Source: Fistulifera solaris
Lineage: Eukaryota; Bacillariophyta; Bacillariophyceae; Naviculales; Stauroneidaceae
Direction: 5' to 3'
DNA length: 64,000 nucleotides
Assembly: GCA_030295235.1 (NCBI GenBank)
Contig: AP026127.1
Span: forward strand, 64,501-128,500
Every line of letters starts with the position of its first letter. The stretch's first letter is position 1. Both the position numbers and the translations under genes were made by a program. The notes beneath the pieces are model-generated. The model made no database searches and had not been told where the DNA came from. It worked only from the letters and a program-made list of their open reading frames with translations. Of this stretch, positions 5,837 to 35,597 are shown one piece after another.

Positions 5837-8800
5837 TTATTCGGACCCGGGTGCCTCCAATCGTGCCACCATTTCGGCCACCAATTGTCGACCTTTGGCT
5901 TCCCACTCTTTGCGATTCGTTTCGGCATAGTTCAAGTATTCATCGCTTGCAACACCAAAGACACCACATTCCTTCAACTTCTTGGCCAGGGGAATGATAT
6001 AAAAATCAAAAAGCCGATTTCCCCTTCGTACCAGACATCGGCAGGATTCTTGGACGCGGCCTTGACGATAGGCCGTCATCATTTCTTCAAACAGACGAGC
6101 ATTCCATTTGCGGTAAATGTGCCAGTGTTGCATCGTGTGCGATACATCGGAGGCTTGAATGACATGCTCCAACACAATGGTCGCCCCTCACGATTGATTT
6201 GCTCTTCGATTTCTTCGGGAAACAGGTTGACGCTGTGGTTGTTTTCGGCAAAGGCTTTGGCCCAGCGGTCTTTGCGCTTGACTGAGTGACTTGTCCATAA
6301 TATCCGTGGCCATGACCAAATTCACAATGAGTTGGCGGAAGCGATTGTATTCGGCCGGTGTGGTGTAAATGCAGTTCGCGCAGATCAATGAAAGCTTCGT
6401 CCATGAGTAATGACCAGGCGATATCGACGGAGTTTTGTTCGGCGACACTTTTGTTGTGGTAGACAGCGGCAATGGGAGACTTTTCTTCGATCAATGTGGC
6501 ATTGGTGACACCCTGGTGATCGACGTCGTGAATGAGAGCCGCAAAGGCGGGCGGCAAATTGGCGTCAATGGCTCGGAGGTAATACCGTACGTGTAATCGT
6601 GGAGAGTCCGGTCGTCTCCGGATACTTCAGGTGCCACAATACGTGAAAAGAGCTTTGTGACCGACATGGTGACGTGACTCACGTGTTCAAAGTTGTGGAA
6701 GGCATTGTTGCGATAGAGTGTAGCAATGGCGTGGACGTACTTTTCGAGTTGTTGCATAACCTTTTCTTCCAAAACGACGGGTGCGAAGCTTCTCCTGACG
6801 CGCCGCCGCTTCGGCATCAAAGGTGGGCAGGGCGAGAATTTCCGTGACTTCTCCGAAAAGCGTGACCCACTTGAGTGACCTCTTCGGAGCAATCGGACGG
6901 CTTCGAAATTGGGGGCAGTGTTCAATGCTTGACGTCGTTGGACCACGTCTTTCAATATCTTGGCAAGGACTTCGGCATTCCACTTCACCAGGCGTTGGGA
7001 TTTTTCCGTCAACGCATTGTTTTTCGATGGGGTAGCATTTTGGAAAAGAGCCGTAGCATCATCACGAATTCTACCTTCGTCATCTCCTTCGCTGGAAGAG
7101 ACACCCGATGAAGTCGACCGGGGACCGTCGTCTTTGACCAGCCAGTAGGTTGTCAATTCGCCCTTGCCTTTGGCGTTGACCTTGTCTTCTCTCAGTCTGG
7201 TCCAGTGCCCCTTGCCGAATGCCTGCAAAATGTTTGCAGTTTCTTCAGAAATGTGGATCATGTTCTTTTTTCCCGTGGTTTCGATACGAGCCGTCGTGAT
7301 TCATCGTGTCACCAAAGAGTTGGAACCGCGCCTTTTCACCACGGAGAACTCCGCCCTATTCGGAAAGGGAAGAAGGATAGTGGTTGAGATAAATGTCATG
7401 GGATGAAGGATTCCATTGGAGCTCCAACTGTATTTTGACGTACCGTCACAGGCCCGCTGTGCAAACCGACTCGCAATCCCAACTCTCCGGTATCTGGTCC
7501 TAATGTAACCTCGAGCTCATTCATCAATGACATCATACAAGCGCGACAATCGCGTGCAAAACGAGCCATGGCGACAGCATGGTCGCGACGTGGATCCGGA
7601 AGACCACACGCTGCTACGTAACAGTCACCCACCGTCTCCACTTTGAATATGCGTCTCCTCTTGGCAATACTGTCGAATTCGGAATATATGGTTTCAAGCA
7701 ACTGGAACACTTGTGCCGGTTCTCTCATCGAACTCCATGCAGTGAAGCCTGACAACAAAATGCGTTGAAAAGGTAAGGCCACGCGTCTCTGGGGCAACAG
7801 AACGTTGATTTCCAATTCGGTTGGTTACTTACCAACAAGATCTGCAAACTGTGCATTAGTAGGAAAAGAAAGGGAGTGGGCTTGTGAGTCTCCGAAAGCA
7901 CACGTGACAATCTGAGCGAAAAATCATGCCTTTGTGGACGTACCATAATTGTTGTGGATGGAAATAGATCAGCGATGGGTGGCATATTCCGTTGTACCGA
8001 CTCGTTGCGATCCCCATTGTCGGGAGTACTCAGCGTTTCCTTCAATCGGTCCTTCATGCTGATACGGAACGCTCCTTTCCCCATTCCTTTCTCGGCCATT
8101 TCCGCCTCCTGCTTGGCCTCGGCCATGATGCGTTCCTGGACGTTTTTGGGAAACAATGATTTGACTATGTCCGTTGTGCGCTTCGCGACTCGTGATATGT
8201 TTCTTTGACGTCGCTCCACGGCACAGTCGTAGCAGAAAAAGATGCCGGTTGTAAAGAGGAAGACACCCAGAATGGCCAACGCGAAGAGATAAGGATCATG
8301 CGTCATATACTTGTCCTTTAGTTCGTCAGTAGGGTAAACATCAATGGTATAGTAGCAATGCTCGACGGAAGTGTCTGCTCCATCGTACTGCGCGAACCCC
8401 GCAAAGTTCGCTTCCATATGCAGGTAGTTGTACTTCGTATCGTGCAAATTCCCCTGTCCGACGACTGTGGCATCGTGTCCGTCGACTCGATACGTTACGA
8501 TTGTGCCGCAATGATCGTTGACTTCAACGATAAATCCATGAATATCGTGCGGAAGAACATTCTTGAAATACTTTTCCCACGGCAATACGGCAAAGACGAA
8601 TCCACCCGGGTCGGTGTAGGACAGATTGTCGCTATGAAGAGTCTTTTGAACAGCTTCCAGGATAACAGACCGCGGATGCCACTCCGAAAGCTCTTGTTGT
8701 CGCGTGGCCTCGAGCAAGTATTCCACATCCACAATGCCGGACATGACGACATGCTCTACTTCGAGAACATCTTGTTCCAACTGATGAAACCAGGAGAAAG

Positions 8801-9578
8801 TGTCCATGTCCAAGAGCATGGTATCTAGGTCATTCGCTTGGGGTGCGACTTGCCATACCGGCACAAACGCAGAGTCTTGGTCATCTTTTTCGGACATGGC
8901 TTCCCCTTGAACATTGTGAATGTGTTTGGGGATCTGTCCTTGGTTGTGTTGGGGCCATTCCATTGCAGTATAAGCCTCAAAGGAGTCTCTCTGCTCCAAG
9001 AGAACCATTGGAGTGAACGCGAACAGCTCGGATCCGGTCAAACGGATGGCTTCTTGCACTTGCTGCGGGAAGAAAGGCAGAGTAACGTTGGGCCAGACCC
9101 CCGCCGTTTGCGAGGCGTGAGACGAAATCGCCGTGGCTAGACTGCGAACTTGCCCGACGGTATTGGCGGCGTTGGTTTCGGACAATTCAATGATTTCACC
9201 GGCCAAGTCACGAAACTGAATGAAAAGTAGAACCGTAGAAAGTGATGGGTTAGAATGCGTAGTGTAAGATGTCGTTCGACACGACAACAAACCTGGACTT
9301 ACCTCTGCTTCAAAGACACTTTCTTCGCTCTTTTTCACAAAGAAGAAAGCTGCCACTGATATCGCTATGCTAGCGAGAAGGAGACAAATGTAAACAATCG
9401 CCTTGGTTCGATTTACAATTCGAGTATCTTCTCGAACGAAACTGCCATTGGAAGTCGAACCATCGGAACGGGCGTTGGTTTGAGACTGCGACGGATCCGA
9501 TGTGCTTTCTCCCTCGTGTTTGGACGAAAGCGACTTGGAGGATTCCGAATGCTCCAATTGAATGATTTGCGGAGGCAT
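5837..9578 (-). CDS. Membrane class III nucleotide cyclase fused to cyclic-nucleotide phosphodiesterase; PDE half frameshifted
   Basis: ATG at 9578. Exon 1 (9303-9578) ends after TM1 (residues 60-81). Four introns fit GT-AG: 9216-9302, 7849-7943, 7749-7832 and 7356-7443, leaving a 16-nt microexon at 7833-7848. Order: cytosolic Ser-rich N-terminus, TM1, an extracellular sensor of about 315 aa with the GFVFAVLPWEKYF motif typical of diatom receptor cyclases, TM2 (about 400-422), then the class III cyclase. Metal-binding Asp519 (FADLVGF) and Asp563 (VETVGD) are 44 residues apart, as in known cyclases. Glu559 favours GTP, but the second purine position is Gln (FQLFGD), so substrate is uncertain. 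The PDEase_I domain follows, with HNFEHVSH and the metal signature HDVDHQG. About seven frame changes lie between about 7300 and 6180, all after the cyclase core; the end (ASDVSHTMQHWHIYRKWN) is well conserved. It would make and destroy cGMP or cAMP at a membrane. Confidence 0.88.
7833..7848 (-). other. 16-nt microexon carrying the cyclase catalytic Asp
   Basis: Reading TTTGCAGATCTTGTTG between CACAG (7849-7851) and GTAAGT (7832-7827). Joined to the flanking exons it gives STTIM-FADLV-GFTAWSS, the exact start of a class III cyclase catalytic core. A longer acceptor (TTTGCAG) inside it would delete FAD, so the CACAG acceptor is required for activity. Confidence 0.8.
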
Positions 9579-10223
9579 TTTTGTGTTTTTATGAGCGAAG
9601 AAAGAATCGATTCGCTTTTGCCGAATTGTTGCGCAGATAACTTGCGACAAAGTTTGGGATGAGATTTGGAGTTGGCGGTTGGCGCTCCAGTGAGAAAATT
9701 TTCTCGTTCGTTGTGACCTTCGCGCTTCGCGACAATTCGTGGAGGCCCAAACGAGACATAATAATGAAATAATACAGAAAACAGGTCGAGTACGGTCATT
9801 TTCAAGTTGAATGATATGATCTGTACTGCAGTTCAATGTAAGCTTATTTCTCTGAGCCAAAGCCCGAGACATTCGGTGCATTATTGCAAAGCTCGCCGCT
9901 CGCCGCCCTCCGCCTTTTTCCTTTTTCCGTGCGTATTCAAATAGACCTTAAAGTACTACGTAGTACGTAGACGTCATTCTGTCTTTATTCTCGGTCTTGG
10001 CATCCGTGCTGTCATCCAGAAGTACTACGGAATCAATAAGTAGCTACTTGAATTGATTCACAGAACAATGACCGTTTTCTCCTGACGTGGTCGACTTGGG
10101 ACCTTGGGACTTGGGGCGGTTGGCGGTTGGCTTTTGGCTTGCTCTCTGCTCTCTTTGGACCTCTGTTCAATAGGCTTGTCGCTTGTCAAGTACCGATAAA
10201 AATGCAGTAGTGCGTTCTGGAGA
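9579..10223. other. 5' flank of the cyclase-PDE gene
   Basis: No supported gene. The in-frame sequence from 9578 upstream to 9881 lacks domain features and is treated as 5' UTR. A TACGTAGTACGTAGACGTC run at about 9958-9976 contains CGTA/ACGT palindromes that could bind bZIP factors; this is suggestive only. Confidence 0.3.
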
Positions 10224-10314
10224 GGACGTAAAATTTTTTTTTTATTTTAAAATAAAAAAATTCTGCCTCCAGTACAAAATTCTACTTAACGTCTATGACA
10301 AGGCAGAATTTTAG
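10224..10314. mobile_element. Palindromic mini-element, copy 1 (interrupted)
   Basis: Begins GGACGTAAAATT, contains TTCTGCCTCCAGTACAAA and TTCTAC, and closes with AGGCAGAATTTTAG. It matches the complete 70-bp copy at 54670-54739, but its left arm is interrupted by an A/T run (10231-10260) that is itself palindromic. Non-coding; resembles a tiny MITE. Confidence 0.65.
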
Positions 10315-10346
10315 CATCGATTCCAATATTTCCAGTGTTCTACTTT

Positions 10347-10546
10347 TGCAGGACAAGTAATTCGTGACTAAATATAGACAGTACATTTTCTACATACGTG
10401 GGTGCTCTTACAGGACAAACCTTTCCTGCATACGTACGTTTTGGTCAATCATCGGCAAATGATTGTCCTGCACACGTCGCGATAATTTCTCGTGATAGTT
10501 GCATCAACGGGAAATGAAACAACCGGTCGATACATTTGCAGGACAA
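10347..10546. repeat. Four TGCAGGACAA-type motifs in 200 bp
   Basis: TGCAGGACAA occurs at 10347-10356, as TACAGGACAA at 10409-10418, inverted (TTGTCCTGCA) at 10463-10472 and again at 10537-10546, and each is next to short TACGTA or CGTCG-like words. Too regular for chance in an unconserved region, but a function is not evident. It could be a protein-binding cluster or a decayed repeat. Confidence 0.4.
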
Positions 10547-10569
10547 GTTTCCTGTCGTACAACTTCTAC

Positions 10570-13148
10570 GAAGACAAAGATCAAAAGCGCACAACATCAC
10601 TTTTTTTCTTCGTAAATGCTATTAATATTATCAAATGGACCAGACGAAGCTTATGAATAAAATGTTAGCAGGCACCGCAAGTAATTAAAACGATGGGTTT
10701 ATTATGTGCCATTGTAAATGGCGTAGGCTTCGTCGGGTGCCAGCTTTTTTCGACGTCGGCTTTACATTACGGCAAAAGGAAAAGAGAGTGAGATGGCGGC
10801 TTTCCGCATTCTTTTTGTTTCTTTTCTGTACCTTTTCGATGATACAAAACATGTATTATCTTCACTTTCATTTCTGAGATAACAATCAACCATTTTTTTG
10901 TCGCACAAATTTCAAACTTGGAAAATTGTCTCACGCGATGAGACGGATTTCGACCTCCATATTGTGACTTCGCGTGAGAGAAATGCATTAAAAAGAGTCT
11001 TAGACTGGTGTGCTACGAAAATGGGTTACCGCGTGTTTTCTCTGTTGATAGTTTCGTGTACGACAGACGTACTTCATCATCAAGTGGGATGAATCTTGTC
11101 GTAGCTCTGAGTCTACGAACAATGATGCTAGATGCTTGAGTTTCGTGGCAGCACGGGTGAATGCAAATTTGAGGCCAGAAAGTGTGCCGCCATGGATGAA
11201 ACAACACGTGGTGTTCGCCTGTTGTAAAAGAAGAATTGGATGAAGTCTTTTAGCTGTAAATAAGAGAAGAATCTCTTTTAATAGCTTCAATATTCCCTAT
11301 ATTCGGGTGCGCAAGACACAACTTGGCCTAGTAATTGTTAGTTAGGACACCGTACGGCACATGTAACCAAGGTTTTTTAAAAAAAAGAAAGTGATCAGCA
11401 TTAGTTTAGTCCGGGACTGATATCGTTGTTAGTCGTAGAACGTTTTGTCTAAAAGTCAAAAACAACAAAGCCACCGTAACATCTTGAGCGAGAAGCTTTT
11501 TAAAAGCACAAGATATTTTAGTGATGATGGGGTGATTGCACATCGTCGAAGATGTGTAGTCGACATAATCCGTGACTGAAAATTTAGGTGAGTCGGAAAA
11601 TACTCTTGTACACTAACGATTATAGTCCGATTCGAATGATTCCGAAGAACTCGCATCTAACTTGATTCGGGTCAAAACGCCGATATAAACAACACCAACA
11701 CAATACGGTCTCCAGCATGATTATTTGGTTCCAAGCCAAAAAGATATATAGAAATTAGCACATAGGTGTAAAGCGGCTATAAAATCAAGCCGAAAAAGTG
11801 ACAACCTCAGGACCATGATTGTTCGTATCGACTTTAGATAGTCGGCAAGAATTTCAACATATTAAATAACTTAAGAAACAAAGCTGACGCTATCTCCATC
11901 TCGCATATCGATTACGTAGTTGCCGTAGGACAGGGCTAGGACAGAACGAGACGCCGATAGTCATCTCTAGTCCAGAATACGAAAAGAAACGTCCGCTCGG
12001 CTCTCAAGCTGCTTGACCACAAGGCCTGATACGCAACTAGTTTTTTGTTTGCGATAGGAAAGATCTAGCAGTTCTCTATTCTCTCTTCCGTGGAAGCCGG
12101 TTCAGAATTTGAAAAGAGAAAACTAGAGGATGCGATTTATGTTTTCATTGTCTCAGACTACTAAAGCTACGAGGTACTCTTTTGTCTTAGTCTTCTGTGA
12201 CTGTAGCGCTTTCTTGTAGAACGGTTGCAATACAGACCATAAAATTTTGCAGGACGACCTTGTCCGGCAAAAGTCGAAGTTTTTACATTGTTCTCACTAC
12301 CCCTCTTGTAGCTATAGCTTGCGGCTTGGCTACGGTGCTTGGGTATCCGCGATCCGCAATCCACATCCGTCCCTCCATTCAAGTAAACATAACGAACAAA
12401 CATCAAACACATGAACTTACAAGGAGAGAAAGAGCTAAAGGAAACAAAGAGAAACAAGCTGGAAGCGCTAAAGACGGATGTCTAAAAATTTATAAGCTAT
12501 TGCTACATCGGCATCCAAAGCAACGTTGAATTGATAACCGTTGCGGGTGGATACGAAATTGGGACGTGGCGGGGAACGTAGACGTCACCAATCACGGATG
12601 ACTCGCGTTATACTTTACTTGCATTATCCAGGATGCTACCCACGGATTGTGAGTCAGCAGTCAGCAATAATGTTGGTTTGGGTCGAATTCGAACACCTCT
12701 ATCTTCTATCTCTGGGCTCTGGGCCTGTTGGAATAGGCAATCCCAACCTTCAAGAACTTGTAGGGGATCAGACAGCCTTCACAAAATCAAAAATTGTCGA
12801 ACAAGTCGACAGTTTTTATTTTCGCCGTAGAAATGGACCAGCGTTTCTACTTGAAAGAATCCGGAACTAAAAGTCAGAAAATCCTCAAAAATTGGTTTTG
12901 ATACGAAACAAACTATTGTATTCAGCATTTTCTAATGCATCTGACTGAACAATTAGATCTTTTGTTTAAGCCATTATTTTGATCAAAAACTGATGATTTA
13001 CATTAATATACCAAGGGTTAAGGATATGTTTTGAAAAGGTTGTGCAGTTGTGCACGGTCGGAAATGACTCCTTTTTCATAGAGTACAACGTACAACGGTA
13101 TCACTATCACTATCACTTCCGTTTCTACTAGAGAGGGAGTCATCCTAG
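10570..13148. other. Gene-free stretch
   Basis: Only short overlapping ORFs without domains (for example 11000-11290 -, 12167-12457 -, 12197-12529 +). Codon patterns switch and no consistent splice structure links them. I see no supported gene. Confidence 0.35.
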
Positions 13149-13454
13149 TCACAGGTCGAAAGTCGAAAGACGTTCGTTCCGTTGCTTTTCTCGCGGATCG
13201 CTCATCGGCATTCGTCGGCATTCATCGACTTCAAGAGCAGCCTTGGATCTTGGATCTTTGATGAAAGATTCTGGATAATCCGAATCGTGTTTGTGAAGGT
13301 AAAATGGCGCGCCAGCCCTTCGTTCGACGTTTGTGCTTGTAAAGGACCCAGAGTGAAAAATAAAGAATGGAATGGGTATGGCGAGGATCCCTACCAAAAA
13401 TAATGTGAGACCTCCCTTCACTCGGCATGAATTGTTATTGGTGCAATAACGCAT
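13149..13454 (-). CDS. Possible small single-TM protein
   Basis: ATG at 13454 opens a 101-aa frame with one hydrophobic segment (LTLFLVGILAIPIPFFIF) followed by a charged C-terminal half. No family recognised. It lies upstream of nothing obviously related and could be a chance ORF. The main support is the membrane segment placed after a short N-terminus. Confidence 0.22.
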   Translation of the reverse strand: MRYCTNNNSCRVKGGLTLFLVGILAIPIPFFIFHSGSFTSTNVERRAGAPFYLHKHDSDYPESFIKDPRSKAALEVDECRRMPMSDPREKQRNERLSTFDL

Positions 13455-13636
13455 CAATGGATTCAGATATTAAAAAGGATTTCCATTGGTGCTAAAATGA
13501 ATGGGAAGGCCGGGCGAACGACTACAATACACCTCTGTATAAATCGAACAGTCGGCACTAAAAAGTGGATCAATTGTAGCTGGTTAGTTTAAGAAACGTC
13601 ATACAAATATAAACAAAACCTATAACTACTATAAAA

Positions 13637-15209
13637 TCAAATGTCTTCTTCATCGTCACCAAATACTTCCGCCTCTTTCACTTGAATCAAAAGATGGACC
13701 GGATCCAATTTTGCTCCCGCCACCAAATCAAAAAACTGTTGCAGTGTGGTAATTGCCAAATCGCCCTGCGTGAAGGTATGATAGGGCGCTTTGTCAGCTG
13801 TCGAATGGCAAATGATCCATTGCACTTCCATGTCACCCTTGGCCAATTTGGCACTCGTGTCCGCATCAAACTCGTACAAGCCCGCTGTTTGGATGGGCGG
13901 TGCCATTTGCTGTTCCAATGTCAAGGACAAATCATCGAGCATCGGAGTGAAATGCAAATCGACGGATTGCTCTCCGTGAACCGAACTCGTGACCCGGACG
14001 ATGGGAGGATACGATTGCAACTTGCGTTCGTTGCTGGGAGGATAGGCTCCGGTTTGGGGTTGTTTGCCACCAAATTCGGACGCATTCCATGTGGTGGCGT
14101 GCAATCGAGTGGGCAAATCCGACAACTTCGGCCACGTAGATGGATCGTCTTCGTGCAATGTAAATACTTCATAGCACAATTTTCCCGCGTATCCATTGAT
14201 ATTGGTGGACACATGGCCGTCGGTTTGAAAGTTGGCATCCTTCCACACTTCAATCAAATGGGTAAAGTGTTCCAATGTCAACGCATGGTACAATTCACAG
14301 TCTTGTTTCAAAAAACAACGACGGACCAATTCTTCGACGCGCAAGACCGAAGCTTGGGCTCCTCCTTCCTTGAAAGTTTCTCGGAAATTGTTTTGCAGTT
14401 GCGAGAGTGTGGTGGACACGGCCGTCGCCACGGTGGGATCATCGCCCGATACCGTTTTGCGAACGGATGGCTTTTGTTTTTTGCCCCGCAATTTGTGCGC
14501 GTCCGCCGGACCGGCCGTGTGGACTCTCCACACCGTCTGTTTGTGTGTTTGGCCGTTGGTGCCTTCAATTTGTTCGTCTTGTAAAGCGATTTGATCCAAT
14601 TCAATTTCAATCGAAAAGTAAGTCCGGGCGATTCGTTTGAGAACCCCTTCGACCAACGGCACCAACAATGTTCCACGTTGCGAATAGTAATGCACCAAAA
14701 TGGCACCTTCTTCGGCACTCGAATCCGGATCGTCTTCGCTCCAAAAGACCGGTGCTACGAATCCTTTCGGATACGACGCCTGCAAATGATCGTGCAAGGA
14801 ATTCAAGTTGGACAACCAGTCGCGCAGATTGCTTCCGAGACATTCCAACACATTGGAATACCCATTGTCTTGAACATAATCAATAAAGTAGTCACCAAAC
14901 GCGTGCAAGACATCGTCGACACGGATGCCCAAGACTTCGGAGGCCGCGACGACCAATTGCACCGTATCGGCGTCGGGATAGTACTTGTATCGCAAGAATC
15001 CTCCATCCGGAACATCACAATTCGCCTTTTCTTTGATTTGATGCCACGTTTCTGGGGAGGTGAGTCAAAGAAGAAAACGGCATAATGTTGGCAAAGGAAG
15101 TTGAGCCGACCCAGCGAAGGAACCATCAAAAAGGCCACCGATATCGCTTACCTTCCCCAAACTTGCTCACCACCAGACATTCGGTGCAATCGTTGATCCA
15201 ACCAAACAT
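13637..15209 (-). CDS. H-NOX (HNOB) haem-based gas sensor with novel C-terminal region (490 aa)
   Basis: ATG at 15209 starts a 58-nt exon (MFGWINDCTECLVVSKFGE). A 100-nt GT-AG intron at 15052-15151 joins it in frame to ETWHQIKEKANCDVP. The first 185 residues are an H-NOX domain of standard length: proximal haem ligand His106 (SLHDHL; His105 in animal sGC beta) and the haem-propionate motif YxSxR at Tyr141-Ser143-Arg145 (HYYSQRG). H-NOX domains bind haem and sense NO or O2. The following 300 residues (from about Lys190) are not HNOBA, cyclase or kinase and I do not recognise them; they are one continuous frame ending in an acidic tail (VFGDDEEDI). The gene is intact, 4 kb from a cyclase-PDE and 6.7 kb from an HNOBA kinase. 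A cytosolic NO sensor is the likely role; the output domain is unknown. Confidence 0.9.
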
Positions 15210-16086
15210 TGTTGAAACTGTTGGAGATGTTAATGATGGGTTGCACGGCGATGATTGACATACCTTTCGGTGCAAAACATCATCGCGCCGTTTCTTGTTC
15301 GCGTCGCTCGGTCGGAGCTACCCGAAATTCGAAATTAGCAGAATCTAGTTGGAACTTTATCTGTAATGCTGCGGCGTGTGGCGTACGAGTGACGAATACC
15401 TGGCACAGTACGGTGGTCTACTTGTATCCATCCTCAAAAATCGTTGCTTCTTCTTGCAGCATCGATAGTGCATTGACGTCATGACTCATGAGTCGCGGGT
15501 CATGGATCGCGGTTCGTTGCTAAGATAAACAAATAATACGAAGTTCTGCAACGACAACTCCAAACACATATGGTAGACTATAATATACAAAATTCATTGT
15601 GAGGTAATAGTGAATAGTTTTCGCTTTCGTATTTCCGACATGTGTCAAGGGTCTATGCGTCTATGCTTCTAATGCGGATGCATGATGTCGAAGAAACTTG
15701 ATACAGAACACGTTAAGTGGATAATCACTCCTTTCGACTTGCTCGGTGTGCAGTAACAAGTTTGGCAGTCAGCTAACATCCTATTACAGGGAAAGTACCA
15801 TTTACGACTTACAACACCCCGTGGAGTGCAAGCGCGACTATCGGCGACCAGGCGCCCTCCGCCAAGCCTCAAGACAAGTTACTCGTCTTGGGAAGACAAT
15901 GTAGTACCAACAAACCTATGATGCATAGAATGTCTAGCGCAAGGCAAGGAAAAATGAGTAGGACATCAAGTAATGCTTATCAGCTTATTCTGTATTGATA
16001 CTATCATCTGACAAAAAGGAGCCGCAAAATCGAAAGCAATGTCTTGTTGTTTCACTTGATACGGTAAGTAGCCACTCTAAGTATGC
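15210..16086. other. Intergenic, no gene seen
   Basis: The left part is the H-NOX promoter (no clear TATA box). The rest, including a short ORF at 15669-15872 (-), shows no coding features. Confidence 0.35.
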
Positions 16087-17090
16087 CTAATCATATGGAG
16101 GATCTCGATAGCCGCAGGAAAAAAGCTTTTCGCCGTGATTGATTGCCAATTGCGTGATGACAGCAACAGCGGCGAATGCGTCGCCATGTTTTACCAGTTC
16201 CCTCGCCATCTCCCCTGCAAGACACTTCCATTGCTTGAAACGCTTGTTGATTGTCTCTTGTCGGTTACGCACCCTTTGCTGCATGTATTCAGTGTAGGGA
16301 GGGTTTGCGAAACCCGCAGGACATTTTACAAACAAAGGATGGTCGCCGATGTAGCCATCGTCTGCCTCGACTCGCTCACCAGGTTCAAGATGGCTTCGGA
16401 GTGAATTGCGAAAAATGTTGATATCCGGCCAAAGCCCAGCTTCGTACGGACCATTTACCCAAACAATGTCGCCAGTTAAAATACATAATGCCACTTCATA
16501 CCGGAATGCCGACTTCTTGAATTTATGGCTGTAAAACGCTCGACCGTGCTCTGGAATCAGGAAGTCTGTTCCGTCAACTGATATCAAACAATCATTTCCC
16601 TTATCCATCTTGAATCGATTCTCCCAGATTATCTGATGAAGAGAGTCGAAAAAGAGACGCGTTAGATGTTATTATCCGATATGTAGGTGATGATTCTTTT
16701 ACTGCAGCAACTTACCAGGAAAGACTGAAGCGAAGAAATTGCCTCGACAAACTGCCAAGACCACTTTCGAAACGTGTCCTTGTCTACTCCGCCAGCGAGC
16801 GCGCACATGACCTTTTCCGTGCCGTATACTTTCAGGAACATAAGTGCCCACAGCAGATGCTCCTTATTGCTTGTGCTACCAGGCGGTAGGCTTTCCGTTT
16901 TTTTCAACAAATTCCACAGAGAAACACAAACACCAACACTACAACCAAACATTTCACGAAACTCGCCGTCTTCGCTCGAGAACGCTCGCTGTTTCCACGG
17001 GTCACGTCGCCAAATTTCTCTAGCAAGAATCAAGAACGCATCCGGAGAGGCCTCATCTGTTAGTTGTTGAACGTTCGCATTACCGAACAT
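16087..17090 (-). CDS. Harbinger-type DDE transposase-like protein (306 aa, spliced, intact)
   Basis: ATG at 17090; exon 1 (16716-17090), intron 16633-16715 (GTAAGT...CATCAG, 83 nt), exon 2 to the stop at 16087. The joined protein reads SLQSFL-IIWENRFKMDKG without a break. The DDE_Tnp_4/HARBI1 signature is present: first Asp in LISVDGTDF, second in GLWPDINIF followed by ADDGYIG, and the conserved RVRNRQETINKRFKQW block near the C-terminus. Normal role is cut-and-paste transposition with a partner DNA-binding protein. No partner ORF, terminal inverted repeat or target duplication was seen nearby, so it may be a stranded copy or a domesticated nuclease like HARBI1. Unlike the transposase at 53.7 kb it has no frameshift. 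Confidence 0.82.
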
Positions 17091-17877
17091 GATTGCTCTC
17101 AGTAATCACGTATGCGACAAGAAAAATCGTTATCTTGAAATGGAATGAAGAAGTTTATGCTCTTCATCAAAACCCGATCAATTATCAGCTCATCGCAATT
17201 GGGATCGCACAGACGAGGAGGCAAAAACAAAAAAAGATCCGAGACTCTCGTCACTCATCACAGCGTCACAGGTCACAGTCAACACCCTTTCGCATAGCAG
17301 TCGATACATAGCACAATCGTTGATGGTCCCCCATGCGTTTGAAAATTCGAAATTTCAGATTATTCTACTCAAAAATTTAGTTATGAAGGGAAAGCTTTGA
17401 TAACTTAACCTTTAGTGTTTCGATAGATAGAAGGGATACCTCTGAAAATTGAGTGTTAAGTGAACAACTATCGATCTTTTTGTAAAAAAATGAAAAATAA
17501 CCTCTCTCGCCACTCGCCACTCCTAAGCTAACGCCTTACCCACTGTATAAGTACACGACCAAGTCGACTACTTTACTCACTTACAGTACAACGTTGACCG
17601 TTGTTTGTTCTCAAAGTTCAACATGAACCAAGACCGCCGTTGCGTACTCTTCACCGCGAAAAAAGAGACTTAAAGCTGCACGTTTCGGCTTCCAGCTTCC
17701 AGCAAACCGTACAACGTATGAATTATTAGGAGATGCGAAATGAGAGAATGAGATTTTTAGTGGAACCGATATCCGATGCACAAAGAAAAGGAAGAAGGGG
17801 CATATCATTTTAAAGAAACGCTTTCCTTAAAGAATCGTACTCTCTTGCTTGTAAGTTGTAAGGAAATCCAGGTATCT
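17091..17877. other. Intergenic, no gene seen
   Basis: AT-rich, with only short ORFs lacking domain features. It is bounded by the transposase start on the left and a degenerate tandem array on the right. Confidence 0.35.
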
Positions 17878-18172
17878 GCGGCATGCGGCATTACGCATTA
17901 CGCATTACCGCATTACAGCCAATCGCGGCAATAATGCGTTCCTCGGCATTAATGCTTTCTGACGCATTACTGCGATGTGCGGCATTAATGCTTTCTGCGG
18001 CATTAATGCTTTCTGGGGCACATGTGCTTCCTCGTACAAAAGTCTACGCCTTTTTCCGTAGAAGACAGCATTTAGTGCTTTCTGGGGAATATGTGCTTTC
18101 TGCGGAATTAGTGCTTTCTGCGGCACTTGTGCTTTTGGCGACATTAATGCGTTCTTCGGCATAAATGCTTTT
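17878..18172. repeat. Degenerate tandem array of about 18-bp GCGGCATTAATGCTTTCT units
   Basis: At least a dozen units of the type GCGGCATTAATGCTTTCT, with variants (GCACATGTGCTT, GAATTAGTGCTT), broken by a unique piece at about 18034-18070. Each unit holds the palindrome GCATTAATGC. Both strands are open through part of it only because the period is a multiple of three; it is not considered coding. Confidence 0.75.
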
Positions 18173-18873
18173 TTCTTTGAAGATACAGTACTGCTCTAAA
18201 AGTTTTTCCAGTTTTAGTCTCAGTTTTATGTACAGTAGTAATTTTTATTCCGGTAAAATAGGGAGTACTGATTTCTTAAGTGACTCTCGCTACAGTAATG
18301 TGTGTAGTGTGGTTACGATTAATTAACCCCTGTGATTAATCACGGTAAATGATCAAAATTTCTTATTCATCGAAAAACGGAATGCAGTAGTGAATATGCG
18401 ACTTAGAAATCAGAAACGAGACACGGAGTTCTTCTTAGCTGATACTCGAGACTCGAGACTAATTTAACTTTAGTCTGTGCCACATACAGTTGGCGATACT
18501 CAAAAGTAGTGAAAAGCTAAACAAATTCTGAGGCTATTTTAGAGAAAGCACATTTATGGGGTTGAGTGTAGACTAAATTAGCTTGTATCTTGCATCTTGT
18601 ATCGTATTTATTGTGACTTGTGACGATGATTCGTGATTGCTAATCGCCCCTCGATAGCTAAACAGTACATATGATGCTCGTTTTACGTGCATTTTCAAGG
18701 TGGGTGTTCCGTGACCGTGGCTGTCTCCAACCCACTCTCTCTTCAACTAGTGATCAACGAAGAACATCTCGCCCATCTTGCCTCTTGCAACCGCAACATT
18801 CAAAGTAATCACACTTTTGACGCAATTGCCAAAGTTTCACTTTTCAAATCCATCACAATAGACAAAAAGGTAC

Positions 18874-19308
18874 ATGAAATGGGATCAAGCACGCAAAATG
18901 GGAAATGAAGCAGAGGAATCCGTAGAATCCTACGACAGGGCTACGAAGTCGACAATCAATGCTTTCGTAGAGTTTTCAAGCTCAGACGATCACAATTTTG
19001 CGCTGCATGATGGCACGCTGGGGCAATCCTGACAACGCAAAACTTCGCGTCTTGTTTGAGCAAGGGCTTCGAAACGGTGGCGCTGATCCAGGAGACCTGA
19101 GTCAGCCTGCAATCGAACGCGTTCGGTTTCGCCATTGGAAAGATCGAGACTACCACGCTTTCGCGCAGATTTACCGGAAAAAGGCTCGCGCTTACCTTGC
19201 GAACGGAACCTTGGTGGGAGCCCGACGAGGTAATTTAAGGTTGCGCAGCTGCAATTGTGCTTCGCGTACTTCACTAACCCTTTGATGCCTTTGTTTGTAC
19301 CAAGGCGG

Positions 19309-19341
<33 letters not shown>

Positions 19342-20290
19342 TCCAGACGTTGAAGAGAACCAGCCACCGAACCCGGAACAGATTCCGCCGCCGAACCCTG
19401 AGCCTCCCCGTCCCCGCGGCCCCGAGAACGGAGACGAGGACGCTGGTGAACAAGAGGAAGAAGGAGAAGAAGAAGAGACTCCTGACGATTTTGAAGAGTT
19501 TGACGAAGAAAAAGACGAGACCGGGGCAGGTGATCTCGAACGTAGTTTTTCCGAGTTTGCCTTAGACGAGATGAAAGGTGAAGACGCAGAAGACAGCAAG
19601 CCTGCCGCCAGAGACAAGAGCAATGTTGTTACTTTGTCCGATGGCAGTAGCTACTGTCTTGTTCACCAGTTTCCCTACTTGGCGTACCACTATGTTGAAC
19701 ACTCGGAGCGTTTTGTGCTGATCGACTTTCTCGTCGCTGGACAAGATGAGCAGAACTTCCGTCCCAGAGTCTCCGCCAATGGAAAAGCGCTTGTTTTGAA
19801 CATGCATATTCCCGAGCTCTTCATCGAGGCAGATCGTGTAGATTGGGTCCGAGGTACGGGTATGAGCCATCATGCCGTGGCTGCTTTGCGTGTGCTGGGG
19901 TCGAAGATTGCCGAGCACCAACAGGATGAACAGGTTCTTCAGAGCCAGAAAGGACAGGTTGTCAAGCTTCCGTTTGAGGTAGAACGCGATCCAGTGGAGT
20001 GGAACCTTGTGCGATTGGAAGCCGGGAATCGCGACCCTGTCCACGTCTTTTGTGTGCTTCTCAAAGGTGTCCAGAAGCTTAAGAAGCGGGACAAAAAAGC
20101 AGGCTACGTTCAAGTCGTTTCTCCTCGAAGTCTGATCCCACCTTCTGGAGGATCTTCGCAGCCACCGACTGGTCAAACCCAGCAGCAACCTCCGGAACCT
20201 GAGCGGGGCCCCGGCTTATTTGGAGCCATTTCGGGCTTGCTCACACCTCGTCCTAAGAACCGAGACGAACGCGGTGTTACCTTCTCCTGA
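18874..20290 (+). CDS. Unknown acidic, alanine/proline-rich protein, one frameshift near the N-terminus
   Basis: ATG at 18874 (in frame with a second at 18898) gives YDRATKSTINAFVEF and SSSDDHNFALHDGTL, then the frame runs to TGA. Conserved-looking protein resumes in another frame from about 19010 (ARWGNPDNAKLRVLFEQGL, FRHWKDRDYHAFAQIY). The switch falls inside GGCACGCTGGGG, as if one of two tandem GCACGCTG units were lost. A 75-nt intron (19230-19304, GTAATT...CCAAG) leads into an Ala tract, a Pro/Glu-rich linker, then a folded-looking domain of about 190 aa (ending VQVVSPRSL) and a Pro/Gln tail. No family recognised. The opening resembles proteins with a short W-N-P-containing DNA-binding-like module, but this is inference. 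It has no signal peptide and is likely soluble. Confidence 0.55.
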
Positions 20291-21298
20291 GCTTCCAGCG
20301 ATGTATCTGCATATCTATACATAATTACGTAGGAATTTCATGTTGGTGAATGCTTTAGCTTCGTACTATGTCTGTTTGTGTCTAGTGCCGAGTCATTTCA
20401 AAAGATATGATGCTTGTTGGTTGTTGGTTTATTGGCTCCTCTCATCTGATCAAGGAAAATGATTTGCGATATAATTAGGGCGCGAGTGTCGGAAATAGGC
20501 GATCTCTGTACGGGGTAGTGAGGACTAAAACGTTATCAAGTTCTTGGCTCACTTTCGCTATCTGTTTCTCTAAGCTGGTCTTTACGCATTTCTTTGCAGA
20601 GTGTCGTTATTATTGTCGTCCCCGCTGTCACTTGTCACCCATTGAAGTGCCCTGTCGTTTTTAGCGGTACCTGGGAATTTTTTGCTTCTTCCACCTAGTT
20701 CAGTGCCGTTATGACGTCAACGAAACAAAAACATAAAAGTCGGTGGAATCTCTCGGTTTTGCTGATTTCGGGTAGCTCCGTCATCCGACTTGCATTCGCT
20801 CGGACGGTCATTCTCAGAAATCATTCAGTTTCGAGAGTAATTCCAATAGTACAGAGGGTCACGGAGCAGCCGGCGGCCAATAACGCATCGGGAGACGCAA
20901 TAAAGTGGAAATGCCACATGCCACGTGCCAGTACTACTCAAAGCTTTATAAAGGTTTACCAAAAGACAGAACCAAATTATCAATAGTCATCAACTTCGTT
21001 GTAAGTGTAACTGACGAAAAGTAGAGTAGAATGTAGAATTGTGCGTTGTGCCTTGGGCCCAGGTCACGTGTCCTACTACGTAAGCACGTCCAAAATGCGT
21101 ATTAGCTACTCCGGAGTATTAGCTTTCGGCCTTCGGCATTCTTTTGCAAATCACTCTATTTTCTATTTCTCCGATCCTCCTTTGACTGTATGTAGAAGAA
21201 GTATTATGTATAAGATTGACCGGAATGCCGTGTTTTTGACTAAGAATGTACGTGCCCAAAATATAAGCCTCCTACTTTAGTGATAATGTTCAGGAAAC
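20291..21298. other. Intergenic, no gene seen
   Basis: Small ORFs at 20711-20986 and 21041-21280 (+) show no domains, signal peptides or splice structure. Confidence 0.35.
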
Positions 21299-21389
21299 GA
21301 CGTTAAAAGTTAAAAGTTAAAACCCTGCCTCGCCGTAGGCTCTACGTAGAAACTTGTACTGAGAGACTGAGAGGCAGAATATTAACGTC
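21299..21389. mobile_element. Palindromic mini-element, copy 2 (inverted)
   Basis: GACGTTAAAAG at the left and GAGGCAGAATATTAACGTC at the right; the middle (CGCCGTAGGCTCTACGTAG) is the reverse complement of the 54670-54739 copy. The left arm carries an extra repeated AGTTAAA. No target duplication is clear (flanks AAAC and CTTT). Confidence 0.7.
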
Positions 21390-21560
21390 CTTTTTTCCTT
21401 TCCAGTACTCCGTATTTTAATTAAAAATCAAGACCGATGACCAAAACCGGTTTTTTTTTTATTTTAATAAAATATCCCAGAAAGCGTACCAGCAGCCAGC
21501 AGCTTGAAGTTTCCGAAAGGAAAGCGGCATTTCATTATGCCGAACAACGTACGCACGTAC

Positions 21561-21568
21561 TATAAATA
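21561..21568 (+). promoter_or_regulatory. Possible TATA box upstream of the HNOBA kinase
   Basis: TATAAATA, within ACTATAAATAGTACC, 295 bp before the likely kinase ATG. TATA boxes are uncommon in diatoms and a transcription start is not visible, so this is tentative. Confidence 0.3.
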
Positions 21569-21862
21569 GTACCAGTACAACTACGAACGTTTCTCACTTG
21601 CAACTGCAACTTGCAAGGGCCATGCATGGGCCATGGGCCTTCAGAAAAGTACACCTTCAAGGTGGGACCAACGGAAGAACGGAAGTGGACAAGCGACCCT
21701 TCTGCCGGCATAAGAAGATGGACCGACGAAGTCGCTTTGTGACGCTATTTTGTTTGATTTATTGCTTGTTTGTTGTTGTGTTAGCGTTCTCTCTCGAACC
21801 AATCTAAAGTAGACTCCATCACAACAGCAAAGCACAAATCAAAGTGAAAGTAATAGCGTTAC

Positions 21863-24800
21863 ATGAAATTGTCGTCGTCGGCTCCGGAAATGAGCAGCGA
21901 TAATACCACATTGCCGCCCAATCATCCCCCGATCGTTGCGGAAGAAACGAACGGTGAACCCAATCTTCTGTTGCCGCCGGCGGCTTGTCCCTTTCCGGGG
22001 TTGCCTTTGATCCGAAACTTTGGGAAACATTCCAAGCAAAATTGGCTTCCAACGGCGTTTTCCAGCATCCTATGACTCATGACGAGGACCAGGAAAACGA
22101 AGAAAATGTTCATCTCGTATCGTTACGCGGCGAGGTCGACGATAATCTCCCCTTTCCTACCACATACTTCTGGAAAGGATCTGAAGCAACCAATTATCGA
22201 GTACAAGTCATCAACGAAATGACCAAGCGAAGCAAGGATTTGGTGTTGGATCGGTCCAAGAACGAAAGTCTGTACGAAGCCGTGTATGACAATCCTCGCG
22301 TCAAAGAAGCTCACATTCGCAAATGGGGCGCAGAAGTAGCAGAGAATGTCCGCAACGGAACGGCCGAAGTTCGCGTCAAAATCATCGTCGGCGAGGAATT
22401 GTGTTGTTGGCTCACATTGGAAGAAATGAAAACGTTGGGTACGAACGATCTCTATCAAAAATTCATCAAGAGATCGAGATCCATCGATAGAATCCGAATT
22501 GCTTTGTCGTGCGTCGCCAAAGATCATTCCCATCAGCGAACGGATGAAAGGAACGGATCATCGTCGAGCATGAGAAAAGAAAAGACTCTCTGTGTGTTTT
22601 TCAAAAGGTCCTAGTCGCCCGACGTCTCCTGCCAAGCAAAGCAGTCCCATGAAAGGTATTCAGCGAGAAAATGGAAGCAAGCCCTCGTGCCACACATTAA
22701 AAACGGTGTTGGTCGCTCACCGCAGTCCAATGGATGGTCCTCTTCTCACCAGAGAGAACGAGATCACTTGCCTGGATGACATGGTTCAGAGGGGCGATGG
22801 TGTGGACGTGGTGACTCCTTACTATTTGGAAGAATACTCATTTTCAGCGAGTGATGGATTGACACTATCTATACTTGATACAGAATCCACGACTGTTTTG
22901 GACTTGTTGTCATCGTCAACGGTTCGAGCGAAAACGACCATGGGAGTCCGTGTCATCAATCGAGCGTCCAAAAGGAGTAAGGATTTAGTTTTACAAATCA
23001 ATGACACTGACACAATCTTTGATGCGGTCTATGATCACCCAGGAGTCAAAGCAGCGCACGTCCGGAAATGGGGCAGTTCCGTGGTCCAGGCCGTTAAAAG
23101 TGGAACATCGGAGGTTCAGTTTTGTGTCTGGGACGATGATACGGATAGGCCGTGGAGGGTCTTCTCCATTGATGAACTGAAGTCGACTACGACCCGCCAA
23201 CTTTACGAGCTTGTTTCCGAATCGAGCAACCTCATTACTATCTATTTGCAATGCGTGCCTGTCGACAGTCATACTTCAACCTCTGACAACAACTCGTTTT
23301 CCGGAACATCACCGCCAGAACTCAAGATGGAGCCGCTGACAGATAAGGCTAGTGGATCCTCGGTAAGACCAGAAGCAAAAAGCTTATGTAACAGTATCGA
23401 CGAAGACAGTCCTTCGCTCCATGACAAAGAGCTGAGCAGCTTGGAACAGCAGAAGCGACAAACGTTGCAGCGACTGAAGATGATGAATGCGCCCCGTCGC
23501 CCATCCCTTCGAATCATGAAAGATGGCAGGCCGCAATTTACTATAGAGACGGAGGAAAGGTCAACGGATAATTTGGTTGTAAAGAAGCCCAGCCGTGGGA
23601 ACCACATGAAATTGGCTGCGGTGCCCCATATTCCTCGCACTCGATCATTCCCGACGACTCGGGTGGCAACGAATGATAATGCAGAATTCGTGCGCCGTAA
23701 TGGTAGCTACAGTCAAGAAACGGTTTTCACCGATCCAACCGAAACGCTTAGGAAAGAAGGCGTGTCTTATGACTCTTCAGCGGATCCCAATACGGCTGGA
23801 TGCTCTAACACTTCATGGAACTCGCCGACAAAATCTTTGATCCGCAAACGGCTGCTTGGTGCTTTAGACCGTTCAAAGGCGAATTCTCCGGCTACGGAAG
23901 TGTCATCTCAAAGTGCTGATCAGCATGTACATTTGCGAGGAGAGCAGAAGGTGTCGATCCCGTACACCGAAGGAGATGTGACACTGGACATTAAACCGAC
24001 GAAGAATGCAATCGACCAGCAGAGTGGCAACGAAGAGCCATCGCGATCGAAAAGAGAAGTGTTGACGAATCATAGTGACAAGCTGGCGTCGTCAATTGCT
24101 CTTGATCTCCCATCTACATCATTCACAACTATGCAAGACGTCGACTCGAACTCTAACAGCCGGATACATGAGCCACAGGACAAACTCAAGACCAACGATA
24201 AAATAAAACGATTTTTGGCGTTGCAGCAAGGAAAAACAGACTCAGTCTCCCCGGATGATGACGCTTCGTCCGAAGTGCATTCATTGTCCGCGTGCACTCA
24301 AAATCGCCGTGATATGCCACCATTGAAAGAAATATCGGTCATTGCGGACAGTAGAAACTCAGATATTATCCCTCTCCCTCCGGCCGGTCCTCAGGAAATC
24401 TCGCTCCCGGCGAATGTTGTCAAGGATGTCTTCCCATACCATATAATTCTTGATGCCGATTTTGGTATCATACAAGTGGGAAATAACCTCGAGGTTCTTC
24501 TCGAACAAACCGGCCTAACGGGTCTGTGTGTAAATGACATTCTGGCAGTTACGAACCCTATCCCCATGATGGACGGATGGGATTGGACCGTGCTGGAGAA
24601 GATGAAGGATAAAACCATATTTTTTGAATCCGTTCTGCCGTCACCCTCCGGCGACAAACGAAAATTGAAGGGAACAATTGTTGAGGTTTCCGCTTCACCC
24701 AAACACGTCATGTTGGTCCTCTTTCCCAATGTAAAGAACCTTGCGGAAATGGAAGACGCCAATTTATCTATGGGAGACTTGCCCCTTCACAGTTGTCAAC

Positions 24801-26957
24801 GTGAAACAGTATTGTTCGGAGAGCATAGCAAAAGTGAAGTGAATTTAACAAATCATCTTGATCAGCTCCATAGAGATTTGATTGATTCCATGGAACAACA
24901 GATAAAGGATCGTACCGAGGAATTGGCGGCAGCGTTTCGGAACCTTGAAGCGGCAAACGCGCGACTGGCGATACAATCGGCTCGTCAGCTGGAGCATTTC
25001 GCATGTAAGTCTTTTCTGATAACTTTATTGGCTGCTCGTTTCAACAATTGAACTAAGCTAACCTTTGCATGTACCTCCTCCCGACTCGTTTAGGCATGTC
25101 TCACGAAATCCGAACTCCGTTGAATTGTATTGTGGGTATGTCTTCGCTTCTGTTGGACGACGCCGATGACATGGAGCCGATGCATGCCGATTCCATCCAG
25201 ATGATCAATACCAGCGGCGAGTTGTTGAAGGCCGTTGTCGACGACGTTTTAGATTATGCAAAGCTCGAGAGTGGAAGTTTTGAGGTGGACATCAAAGAAG
25301 CGAATCTGCAGAGCACATTAAACAGCGTAGTCCATTCCATGTCCGAGAAAGTGCGAGAGAAGAACATTCGTCTTCGACTGGACTACTCTCCATTTTTACC
25401 CGAAATTGTCGAAACAGATTCCCGGCGACTGCAGCAAGTCCTCTTTAATCTACTCGGCAATGCTGGCAAATTTTCCAACCAAAACAGTGTGATTGATTTG
25501 ACTGTAAGTCTCGTTCCTGTGGAATCGACGGGAGTGGACCCCGCGGAAACGAGCAACGGTCAAGTCATTCGATTCGAAATCAAGGATTACGGAAAAGGTA
25601 TCCAAAGCAAAGACTTTCAGACCATTTTCGAGCCATTCTCGCAAGCCAGCAAGGAGACGCAAACGCTTTATGGCGGCACCGGGTTGGGCCTGAGTATAAC
25701 TTCCAAGTTGGTGCATCGATTGGGTGGAACCATAACGTTACAGTCCGAGTACGGAAAATTCGCCGAGTTCACCGTAAATTTGCCGATGCGAGGTGAAAGT
25801 GTGGACGTCGAATGTCTCTCAAAGCGAGTCGAAAACACCACCATTGTCTTGATCGAAAACCCCACGGTCCATGATTATAGCTTCACCAGTCACGCCATCA
25901 AGCCCGAACCAATTCCACTCAACGCCGAGACGGCAGCGGCCTACCATGTCAACGTCGAACGATGCACGAGTTTGGAAGAAGCCTGCCAGCGCATTCAAAA
26001 CAACAACACTCCGACCAAGACGCATCACTTTGCGTTTTTGGTCCACGAAGAGTTGTATCAAAGCGGAATTCTGGAAAGGCTGGACGGTCTGGTGGGCCAC
26101 TTGAATCACACGCTCATGACCTTTGGTCCGGATTTTAGCGTCGACTCGACAAAGGATCGCCATTTCAAATCTTTGTCCGGTATCTTTGCCTCGTCGCTTA
26201 TTAACAAAATTGCCGGTTACATAGAACAGCGAAGAAGGGAGAAACTATTGTTTGCTACGGGCTCTTCGCTCGCGCCAACAAGTGTTCGTGAGATGCCTTT
26301 AATGACGCCAGCAGCTTCTGCACATGTTTCAACCCAGAACCCTAACCCTCCGCAGCCTGGATCCTCCGTCATCATTTCCCCCAATAAGATTGTCAAACAC
26401 ATTCAACCATCAACGACGGCAACCGCCGAACGGCAGCATTTAAAAATTTTGTACGCCGGTACGTTGTTTCGTGTCTTTGCGCTTTCGACTATGAGCAGAA
26501 TCTCTCACACACTATCAGAGGACAACAAAGTGAATCAAAAAGTCCTTTCGCGCATTCTCACTCGCGCCGGAATCACGCAACTCACCATTGTCGACAACGG
26601 GAAGAAAGCAGTCGATTTGACCGAAACCGAACAATTTGACATTATCTTCATGGATATTCAGGTACGTCAACGTGAATTCACGTAAGATTCGAGGAATGCG
26701 AAATTCGTTTCTTAACTTCCTTCCTCTCTTCGTTCGTTCGCTCTTTCTTCACAATCCTCTAGATGCCCGTCATGGATGGTATGCAAGCCACCAAGATTAT
26801 TACGGAGCGCAATCCGTTCGAAAAGATTATTTTCTGTACCGCACACGCCTTGGAAGAATTCAAAGAACAAACCGAAGCCGTTGGTGCCACTCACTTCATT
26901 TCGAAACCCTTTCGATTGGATGACATTGAGCGCGTATTGCAAGAATTGGGGTATTAG
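21863..26957 (+). CDS. HNOBA-sensor hybrid histidine kinase with receiver domain
   Basis: Likely ATG at 21863 or 21893 (MSSDNTTLPP). The frame changes near 21985 and near 22600 in low-complexity sequence, so the N-terminal third is broken or contains unresolved introns. Domains in order: two tandem copies of an unrecognised domain of about 100 aa (22195-22520 and 22935-23255, sharing SKDLVL, AVYD and IRKWG/VRKWG); a disordered Ser-rich linker; an HNOBA domain (24430-24900: FPYHIILDADFGIIQVG, LKGTIVEV, MGDLPLHS); a coiled coil; a HisKA with phospho-His at 25102-25104 (CMSHEIRTPLN); an ATPase with LGNAGKF, DYGKGI and GGTGLGLSI; and a receiver with Asp at 26653-26655 (FMDIQMPVMDG), Thr and Lys (SKPF). 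Introns 25005-25093, 26459-26518 and 26662-26762 are required to restore HFACMSHE, LYAEDNK and MDIQMPV. HNOBA normally pairs with H-NOX in soluble guanylyl cyclase, so NO-linked phosphorelay is a fair inference. Confidence 0.88.
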
Positions 26958-32226: not shown

Positions 32227-33346
32227 GTTTGTTTATTGTTGTCTGGATGAGAAGAAAACAAATAATAAAGAGAAAGAAAAGAACTTTTGCGACCCTGCGA
32301 AGCGCAAAATAAAGCAAAAGCGTGACGGAATTCTTTCTTCGAATTCGAAACGTGACAATTGTCAGTCCCGGTAGGATAAGCTGTATGTTGAATAGACTCC
32401 CTCCACTTATTTACAGTTCGTCAATGAGAAGGTGAAAAGTGATGACTGTGAATGAATGAGTAGCACAAATGGCTAGTAATTTGTGCGGCGTTTTTTATCA
32501 AAAAAATTTGAAACGTTTTATTTTTGATCCGCAAAACCGATGCTTCAATCAGAAGATGGAGTGTTGCGCGCATCGATTTAGTTTTCACCACGGACAGCCA
32601 AAGAAGAAGCGATGATGATGGCAGGATGATAGGCCTCGGGATGATGATGCTCTTTGCAATTTAATTCGAGTGTTTTTTGACGCCTTCGTTCGAAAGAAAG
32701 CGTGAAATGGACCTCGCCACAAGCACTTTATTTCGCGTTTTTGTCAATTGAACCGAACGCCGTTATATGGTTGAATCAACCGGCCTCCGTTCTATAGTCA
32801 GTTCAGAAAGATCCCTTGCCACGTTTCATCATCTGATAGGCGAAATGCGTTTAACTCCGAAAATTTGGAGCGTCTATTTCAGCTCAAGCAGGTCTCTAAG
32901 TGGCGTTTACATCGAGCTCTTAATCCCCAAGCTCAGGCAATTTTTCTGGTCGCTGACACGGCGATCCGCTGTCTCGGTATTTGCTCAATCGACTTTGCTC
33001 TATCCTTCTCTTGGCGAAACTGCCGTTGCATCCCTTTTTGTTATGCAAGGTATACATTCGACAAGCGTTTGTAACTGTGGAAGATTGCGAACTGCAGCCG
33101 CGTAGTTCACAAGCTCGAAGTTGCTCTCACTCTCTTCGTTATGAAAAATGTGAAAAAGCATCCTCATCACCAAATAACGCGAGCCCTATCATTCCATGGT
33201 AATGAATAATCAGTCTCCAGTCGATCTTTCCTTGTAAAGTGGATCTCCTTCCTTGTCGAATTTATGCTTTTTCAGCGGTTTCTTCGGTTTCGACGGTTTC
33301 ACCGAGAACGACTCCTCGTGCACAGGAGCGCTCCCAGCAACGATCG
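32227..33346. other. Intergenic plus 5' flank of the LINE insertion
   Basis: No supported gene. A frame from 33264 reads SAVSSVSTVSPRTTPRAQ and would continue across the LINE insertion point in the empty site (QRSILEWALTF), so an exon may have been interrupted; this is weak. The ORF at 32767-33105 has no recognisable features. Confidence 0.35.
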
Positions 33347-33363
33347 ATCCTTGAGTGGGCTCT
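33347..33363. repeat. Target-site duplication, left copy
   Basis: ATCCTTGAGTGGGCTCT, identical to 41632-41648 and directly abutting the element. Confidence 0.9.
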
Positions 33364-33482
33364 ACAATTTAAATGCAGAGACAAAGTTGGACCCCGTACT
33401 CTGTAGCCTACACTACCTAAAAAGTAAAAATCGCAACCACTTACCCTCTAGTACTTTTTTGAGCGATAGTAACCGTTGCAAA

Positions 33483-35591: not shown

Positions 35592-35597
35592 CAGTCA

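Follow-up and report, generated by a model that had tools for sequence, protein, structure and literature searches.

The 64,000-nucleotide stretch of DNA analysed here, referred to as the window, comes from the diatom Fistulifera solaris (contig AP026127.1, positions 64,501 to 128,500) and corresponds to C7:64501-128500 of the 51.7-Mb, 61-contig genome. It carries a gene for a separate H-NOX protein and, beside it, a gene for a hybrid histidine kinase with an HNOBA domain. We propose that the two proteins are the halves of one gas receptor, most likely for nitric oxide (NO), which would act in trans, would have its sensing parts from soluble guanylyl cyclase (sGC), and would not need the cyclase-phosphodiesterase (cyclase-PDE) gene close by. 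We put the probability of this reading at about 0.62. It starts from the observations that both genes look intact, that their sensing domains group with the sGC family, that the genes are neighbours, and that the output is a histidine kinase-receiver. The original prediction had placed an H-NOX protein, an HNOBA-histidine kinase-receiver and a cyclase-PDE within 21 kb, and Pfam profile searches bore out these domain calls.

HNOB and HNOBA were reportedly first described by Iyer et al. (2003, BMC Genomics 4:5). A proximal histidine together with a YxSxR motif defines the H-NOX family. The window protein belongs to this family, as it has a full HNOB domain (Pfam, 1.6e-32 in 13640-15064, minus strand), His106, and YYSQR at position 141. 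In the gene model, the splice joins MFGWINDC..FGE to ETWHQ. The nearest PDB chain by sequence was sGC beta-1 (1e-33, aligned to its residues 1-178), and the match to Alr2278, a Nostoc protein, was weaker (1.8e-22). At the position aligned with Ile145 of sGC, the protein has Leu and not Tyr, which fits NO rather than oxygen as the ligand. Judged from its sequence, the H-NOX protein is complete and separate and has kept its heme residues, and binding of heme and NO is predicted.

The kinase gene was modelled as five exons in one open frame, the start codon being unsure. The order of its domains is two N-terminal repeats, a long linker, HNOBA, a helix, HisKA, HATPase and a receiver. HNOBA was matched at 5.9e-23 (Pfam, 22574-25048, plus strand), its nearest PDB chain by sequence again being sGC beta-1 (2.9e-11). 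HisKA (3.3e-13) and HATPase_c (3.9e-23) were matched in 25057-26682 (plus strand). The receiver match (1.3e-6) fell on one exon and, at 29.0 bits, was below the cut-off of 30.2. With HisKA, HATPase_c and a receiver, and with the phospho-His and the receiver Asp in place (the receiver motifs recognized by eye), the protein is a hybrid histidine kinase. From the conserved His of DLPLH to the phospho-His, the linker measures 75 residues, compared with 71 in three cyanobacterial genomes, those for which a script located both motifs.

Table 1. Positions of the features in the window, with the receptor genes first (+ and - denote strands; aa, amino acids; nt, nucleotides).
Feature	Position	Strand	Remarks
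H-NOX protein gene	13637-15209	-	exon 1 15209-15152, intron 100 nt, exon 2 15051-13637; 490 aa
H-NOX (HNOB) domain	14570-15209	-	~residues 1-180; His106, Pro120, YYSQR 141-145
C-terminal stretch of H-NOX protein	13640-14056	-	possibly beta-grasp, related to kinase N-terminal repeats
HNOBA-hybrid histidine kinase-receiver gene	22072-26957	+	five exons, 1,525 aa, one open frame
Kinase exons	22072-22607, 22666-25004, 25094-26458, 26519-26661, 26763-26957	+	
N-terminal repeat 1	22195-22530	+	ubiquitin-like beta-grasp fold predicted
N-terminal repeat 2	22934-23272	+	39% identity to repeat 1, 5e-27
HNOBA (PAS-like) domain	24401-24913	+	profile matches C7:88901-89131 and C7:89156-89413
Helical linker, HNOBA to kinase	24914-25092	+	contains intron
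HisKA	25093-25275	+	phosphoacceptor motif MSHEIRTP
HATPase_c	25417-25791	+	Pfam
Receiver	26440-26957	+	three exons; EDN, FMDIQMP, SKPF motifs by eye
Cyclase-phosphodiesterase gene	5840-9947, limits approximate	-	membrane-like segments by eye
Transposase frames between H-NOX and kinase genes	16087-17105	-	DDE_Tnp_4 on 16090-16668; 16662-17105 by position only

When the whole 51.7-Mb genome was searched with profiles, HNOB was found at six places and HNOBA at six, both lower bounds, with exon matches merged by hand. Five of the six places are fused sGC genes with HNOB, HNOBA and cyclase together, one of which (C22:153.5-155.6 kb) has stop codons in the cyclase stretch. The two domains stand on separate genes in the window only, so the claim of the original prediction that they lie on separate neighbouring genes held. 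The sole orphan HNOB and the sole orphan HNOBA of the genome are thus 6.9 kb apart; under uniform placement, the chance of such closeness is ~3e-4, reckoned after the fact. The same genome contains 58 cyclase loci and 32 HisKA stretches; with so many cyclase loci, the closeness of the cyclase-PDE carries little weight of this kind.

In cyanobacteria, a separate H-NOX is commonly encoded next to an HNOBA protein. When bacterial and archaeal genomes were scanned with the HNOBA alignment, a single locus came up, on a Cyanobium contig where an HNOBA-hybrid kinase with receivers comes straight after H-NOX; a search of viral contigs gave 34 pattern matches, none of which was confirmed as an HNOBA relative. 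Among 386 cyanobacterial genomes, 51 had an HNOBA match. The 26 of these that matched only from position 162 on, in the helix, were left out, leaving true HNOBA in 25, all with H-NOX. HNOBA adjoins an H-NOX gene at 26 of 29 loci, on the same strand and with 0.09-0.32 kb between the domain matches, and stands alone at three (genomes, loci and pairs were counted by hand and are lower bounds). Among 31 HNOBA frames with visible ends, 24 were judged by eye to be kinase-like and one GGDEF-like, while the other six end in a receiver, in a GAF- or PAS-like stretch, or shortly after HNOBA; several of the loci are cut. The GGDEF-like stretch follows HNOBA in the same frame, beside H-NOX (locus L059, genome G271), and is another output on the same sensor. 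The unpaired loci (G025:C102:91228, G043:C1:2708216 and G341:C1:3488588) have frames of ~1,330 aa with no adjoining H-NOX match, and each of these genomes also carries a paired HNOBA. In print, passages of one paper describe an H-NOX from a Nostoc sp. histidine kinase operon, along with a PAS dimer formed by the H-NOXA domain of a kinase from Nostoc punctiforme (PMC2576301). Hence, the working principle put forward in the original prediction has a known bacterial model.

The likeness raised the explanation that the diatom pair descends directly from a cyanobacterial H-NOX/HNOBA-kinase operon, acquired by transfer or from the plastid ancestor and scattered later, for which the same domain set, the pairing and the similar linker length would speak. 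The trees put both domains elsewhere. The window H-NOX grouped with the H-NOX domains of the diatom's own sGCs at 99/98 (33 rows; bootstrap not settled), the window HNOBA with the diatom's own sGC HNOBA at 99/99 (36 rows; long-branch warning), and in a joined HNOB+HNOBA tree the pair grouped with the diatom sGCs at 100/99 (31 rows; long-branch warning). Holding the pair with cyanobacteria in the joined tree was rejected in the approximately unbiased (AU) test (p-AU 0.0129). When four long-branch cyanobacterial rows (G005, G271, G034 and G046) were removed, the support was 100/99 and p-AU 0.00107, and the diatom group also held up in a quick tree that omitted the animal row. The joined tree left out human beta-1 (HNOBA not typed), the second H-NOX of G005, two sGC copies of C22, the unpaired HNOBA of G043, G025 and G341, and the partial or weak G097, G019 and G072. 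Moreover, the kinase core is nearer in sequence to kinases of the same genome than to cyanobacterial HNOBA kinases: identity was 52% over residues 1-171 and 57% over 164-230 for the C30 kinase, 50% over 1-138 and 51% over 148-226 for the C3 kinase, and 47% over 29-229 for the C18 kinase, as against 38% or less (over 226 residues) for the cyanobacterial ones. On these trees, a direct cyanobacterial origin was rejected, and we consider it very improbable.

The sensing domains thus share descent with sGC, on trees that hold few eukaryotic rows. The simplest history, and the most likely one, begins with an sGC-type gene that was split and in which a diatom kinase took the place of the cyclase. The resemblance to the cyanobacterial pair would then, most likely, have arisen by convergence. 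One may also suppose that eukaryotes started out with the two domains apart and that animals and algae each came by their fused sGCs independently; with cyanobacteria as the outgroup, the joined trees need two changes either way by our count. Chlamydomonas CYG12, which according to a passage of one paper holds each domain of the well-characterized sGCs (PMC2576301), makes this supposition costlier, more fusions of the same kind being needed, and the resemblance of the kinase core to kinases of its own genome points to a later join. An ancestral split is therefore quite unlikely.

By analogy with sGC and the cyanobacterial systems, the receptor would work as follows. NO would bind ferrous heme on His106 of H-NOX, and the Fe-His bond would give way. 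H-NOX would dock in trans on the kinase's HNOBA PAS dimer and shift against it, and the helical linker would pass the change to the kinase, altering the phosphorylation of its own receiver. The accessory domains, C-terminal in H-NOX and N-terminal in the kinase, may replace the lost covalent link.

A more specific version of this history holds that the sGC cyclase was swapped for a kinase, that the cyanobacterial layout was re-created, and that related beta-grasp domains, a single one at the C-terminus of H-NOX and two at the N-terminus of the kinase, took over from the covalent link by docking. We regard it as possible, though rather doubtful. The predicted fold of the kinase N-terminus was compared with the beta-beta-alpha-beta-beta-alpha-beta order of the ubiquitin-like beta-grasp, and the model obtained for the H-NOX C-terminus was of too low a quality to be used (pLDDT 39.6). 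When the H-NOX C-terminus was aligned with the kinase repeats by hhalign, the score was 22.5 (22.49) at a probability of 8%. This score was reached by 0 of 100 shuffles and then by 1 of 500, by 0 of 78 pieces of window frames, and by 0 of 174 cyanobacterial pieces, the best of which scored 22.44 against 22.49, so that the comparison is no more than suggestive. Between the accessory domains, blastp gave E=11 in one comparison and nothing in the other. No credible family in Pfam and no credible sequence relative in PDB was found for either the repeats or the H-NOX C-terminus. The lone PDB match of the repeats, a designed TIM barrel (5.4e-4), was taken as chance.

Several points weigh against the two-protein receptor, the cautions attached to the trees above among them. 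On the eukaryotic side, the trees sampled a single diatom plus one or two animals, and the single-domain trees were already known when the AU tests were run. The hhalign and blastp comparisons tie the accessory domains to each other only weakly. The first kinase intron (58 nt, 22608-22665) was deduced from the reading phase, and a 1-nt frame break is possible there. No Pfam match to Hpt, the partner that the phosphorelay suggested in the original prediction would need, was obtained in a six-frame search of the whole genome with its 32 HisKA stretches; two candidates were scored, and introns or divergence could hide an Hpt domain. The H-NOX and kinase genes are divergent, with 6.9 kb between them that holds a transposon and another frame (19286-20290) without a good Pfam match; hence, they do not form an operon. 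Finally, the pair is dispensable on the homeologous contig C8, which has a broken H-NOX gene and on which the searches did not find the kinase; a single break there could account for the loss of both.

The contigs form homeologous pairs (C7/C8, C21/C22, C3/C4 and others, judged from paired domain matches), in keeping with Fistulifera solaris as an allopolyploid, for which a passage in the literature gives 42 homoeologous pairs with 75% overall homology (PMC5935921). On C8, the cyclase-PDE is kept at 63343-67637 (84% nucleotide identity; 90% amino-acid identity over a 259-residue piece). Adjoining it, C8:68665-69140 is a remnant of the 3' end of the H-NOX gene with three in-frame TGA codons and frame breaks. 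None of the genome-wide searches for the H-NOX domain, HNOBA, the kinase N-terminal repeats and the kinase core reported a match on C8. Beyond the remnant, the gene order of C8 differs from that of the window, and window 44.5-64 kb corresponds to C8 108-128 kb in inverted orientation. In this part of the window, related neighbouring genes at 46103-48364 (minus strand) and 49274-51450 (plus strand) have 82-89% identity to their own C8 copy and 52-60% to each other's. A further stretch (33210-41429) has strong negative GC skew and long one-strand frames that look retrotransposon-like by eye.

The remnant on C8, with the kinase not found there, and the transposase sequence between the two genes would also suit the explanation that H-NOX and kinase do not work together and are leftovers of a broken-up sGC-like gene, decaying or serving something else. 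Both C7 frames are, however, long and open with their catalytic motifs kept, and the arrangement is the usual one in cyanobacteria. We therefore hold this explanation to be unlikely. The original prediction had suggested that the kinase could be the effector of the separate H-NOX protein, and the neighbourhood of the genes, the cyanobacterial precedent (26 of 29 loci) and the loss of both on C8 support it as the likely effector.

The cyclase-PDE fared differently. Its domains were confirmed by Pfam (Guanylate_cyc 7.6e-7 in 6491-7297 and PDEase_I 6.1e-12 in 6087-6623, both on the minus strand), the first half of the cyclase domain lying at 7438-7782. Its layout is common, since at 36 of the 58 cyclase loci of the genome the cyclase is followed, within 2.5 kb and on its own strand, by a PDE. 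The explanation that all three genes form one NO/cyclic GMP (cGMP) module can draw on their lying within 21 kb, where ~0.03 cyclase loci are expected per random 24-kb stretch. Such a module has hardly any chance of being right, in view of the common layout and of C8, which keeps this cyclase-PDE without an intact H-NOX gene or the kinase. For these two reasons, the cyclase-PDE was rejected as part of the unit and is probably a bystander not needed for the H-NOX/kinase receptor. The state of C8 supports the bystander role more than it supports the pair as a unit, because one break could have removed both genes of the pair. In our judgement, the original prediction was right on the pair and most likely wrong in including the cyclase-PDE.

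Compared with known systems, the diatom pair represents, in a eukaryote, a variant of a two-protein design that is already known, and its sensing parts group with sGC. Among the relatives examined, sGC (of animals, Chlamydomonas CYG12 and the five fused diatom loci) is the nearest for H-NOX and HNOBA; in sGC, HNOB, HNOBA and a class III cyclase form one polypeptide, whereas the window pair has its domains on two proteins and a histidine kinase-receiver in place of the cyclase. The cyanobacterial operons (Nostoc, Cyanobium) likewise set a separate H-NOX beside an HNOBA(H-NOXA)-kinase, locus L033 having a hybrid kinase-receiver. In contrast to their same-strand genes 0.09-0.32 kb apart, the diatom genes are neighbours that diverge across 6.9 kb, with domains that group with eukaryotic sGC and a kinase core nearer to those of its own genome. 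In the bacterial H-NOX/HnoK system, a separate H-NOX regulates a separate kinase, which is not known to carry HNOBA. Eukaryotic H-NOX proteins not joined to guanylyl cyclase are described from Acanthamoeba in a paper whose relevant passage mentions no HNOBA kinase partner (PMC4053784). A literature search, mainly of open-access work and hence not implying absence from print, turned up no diatom or algal HNOBA kinase named in a title or at the start of an abstract.

Signal transfer from H-NOX to HNOBA has been studied in animal sGC, where all parts are in one chain. With the two domains on separate eukaryotic proteins, their contact becomes testable by mixing two proteins, which cyanobacteria also allow but here with sGC-type domains, and one genome carries the fused and the split forms for comparison. 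If the proposal is true, diatoms would gain a direct route from NO to a histidine kinase beside cGMP, and one receptor family would have two NO outputs, cGMP through the fused sGCs and phosphotransfer through the split pair.

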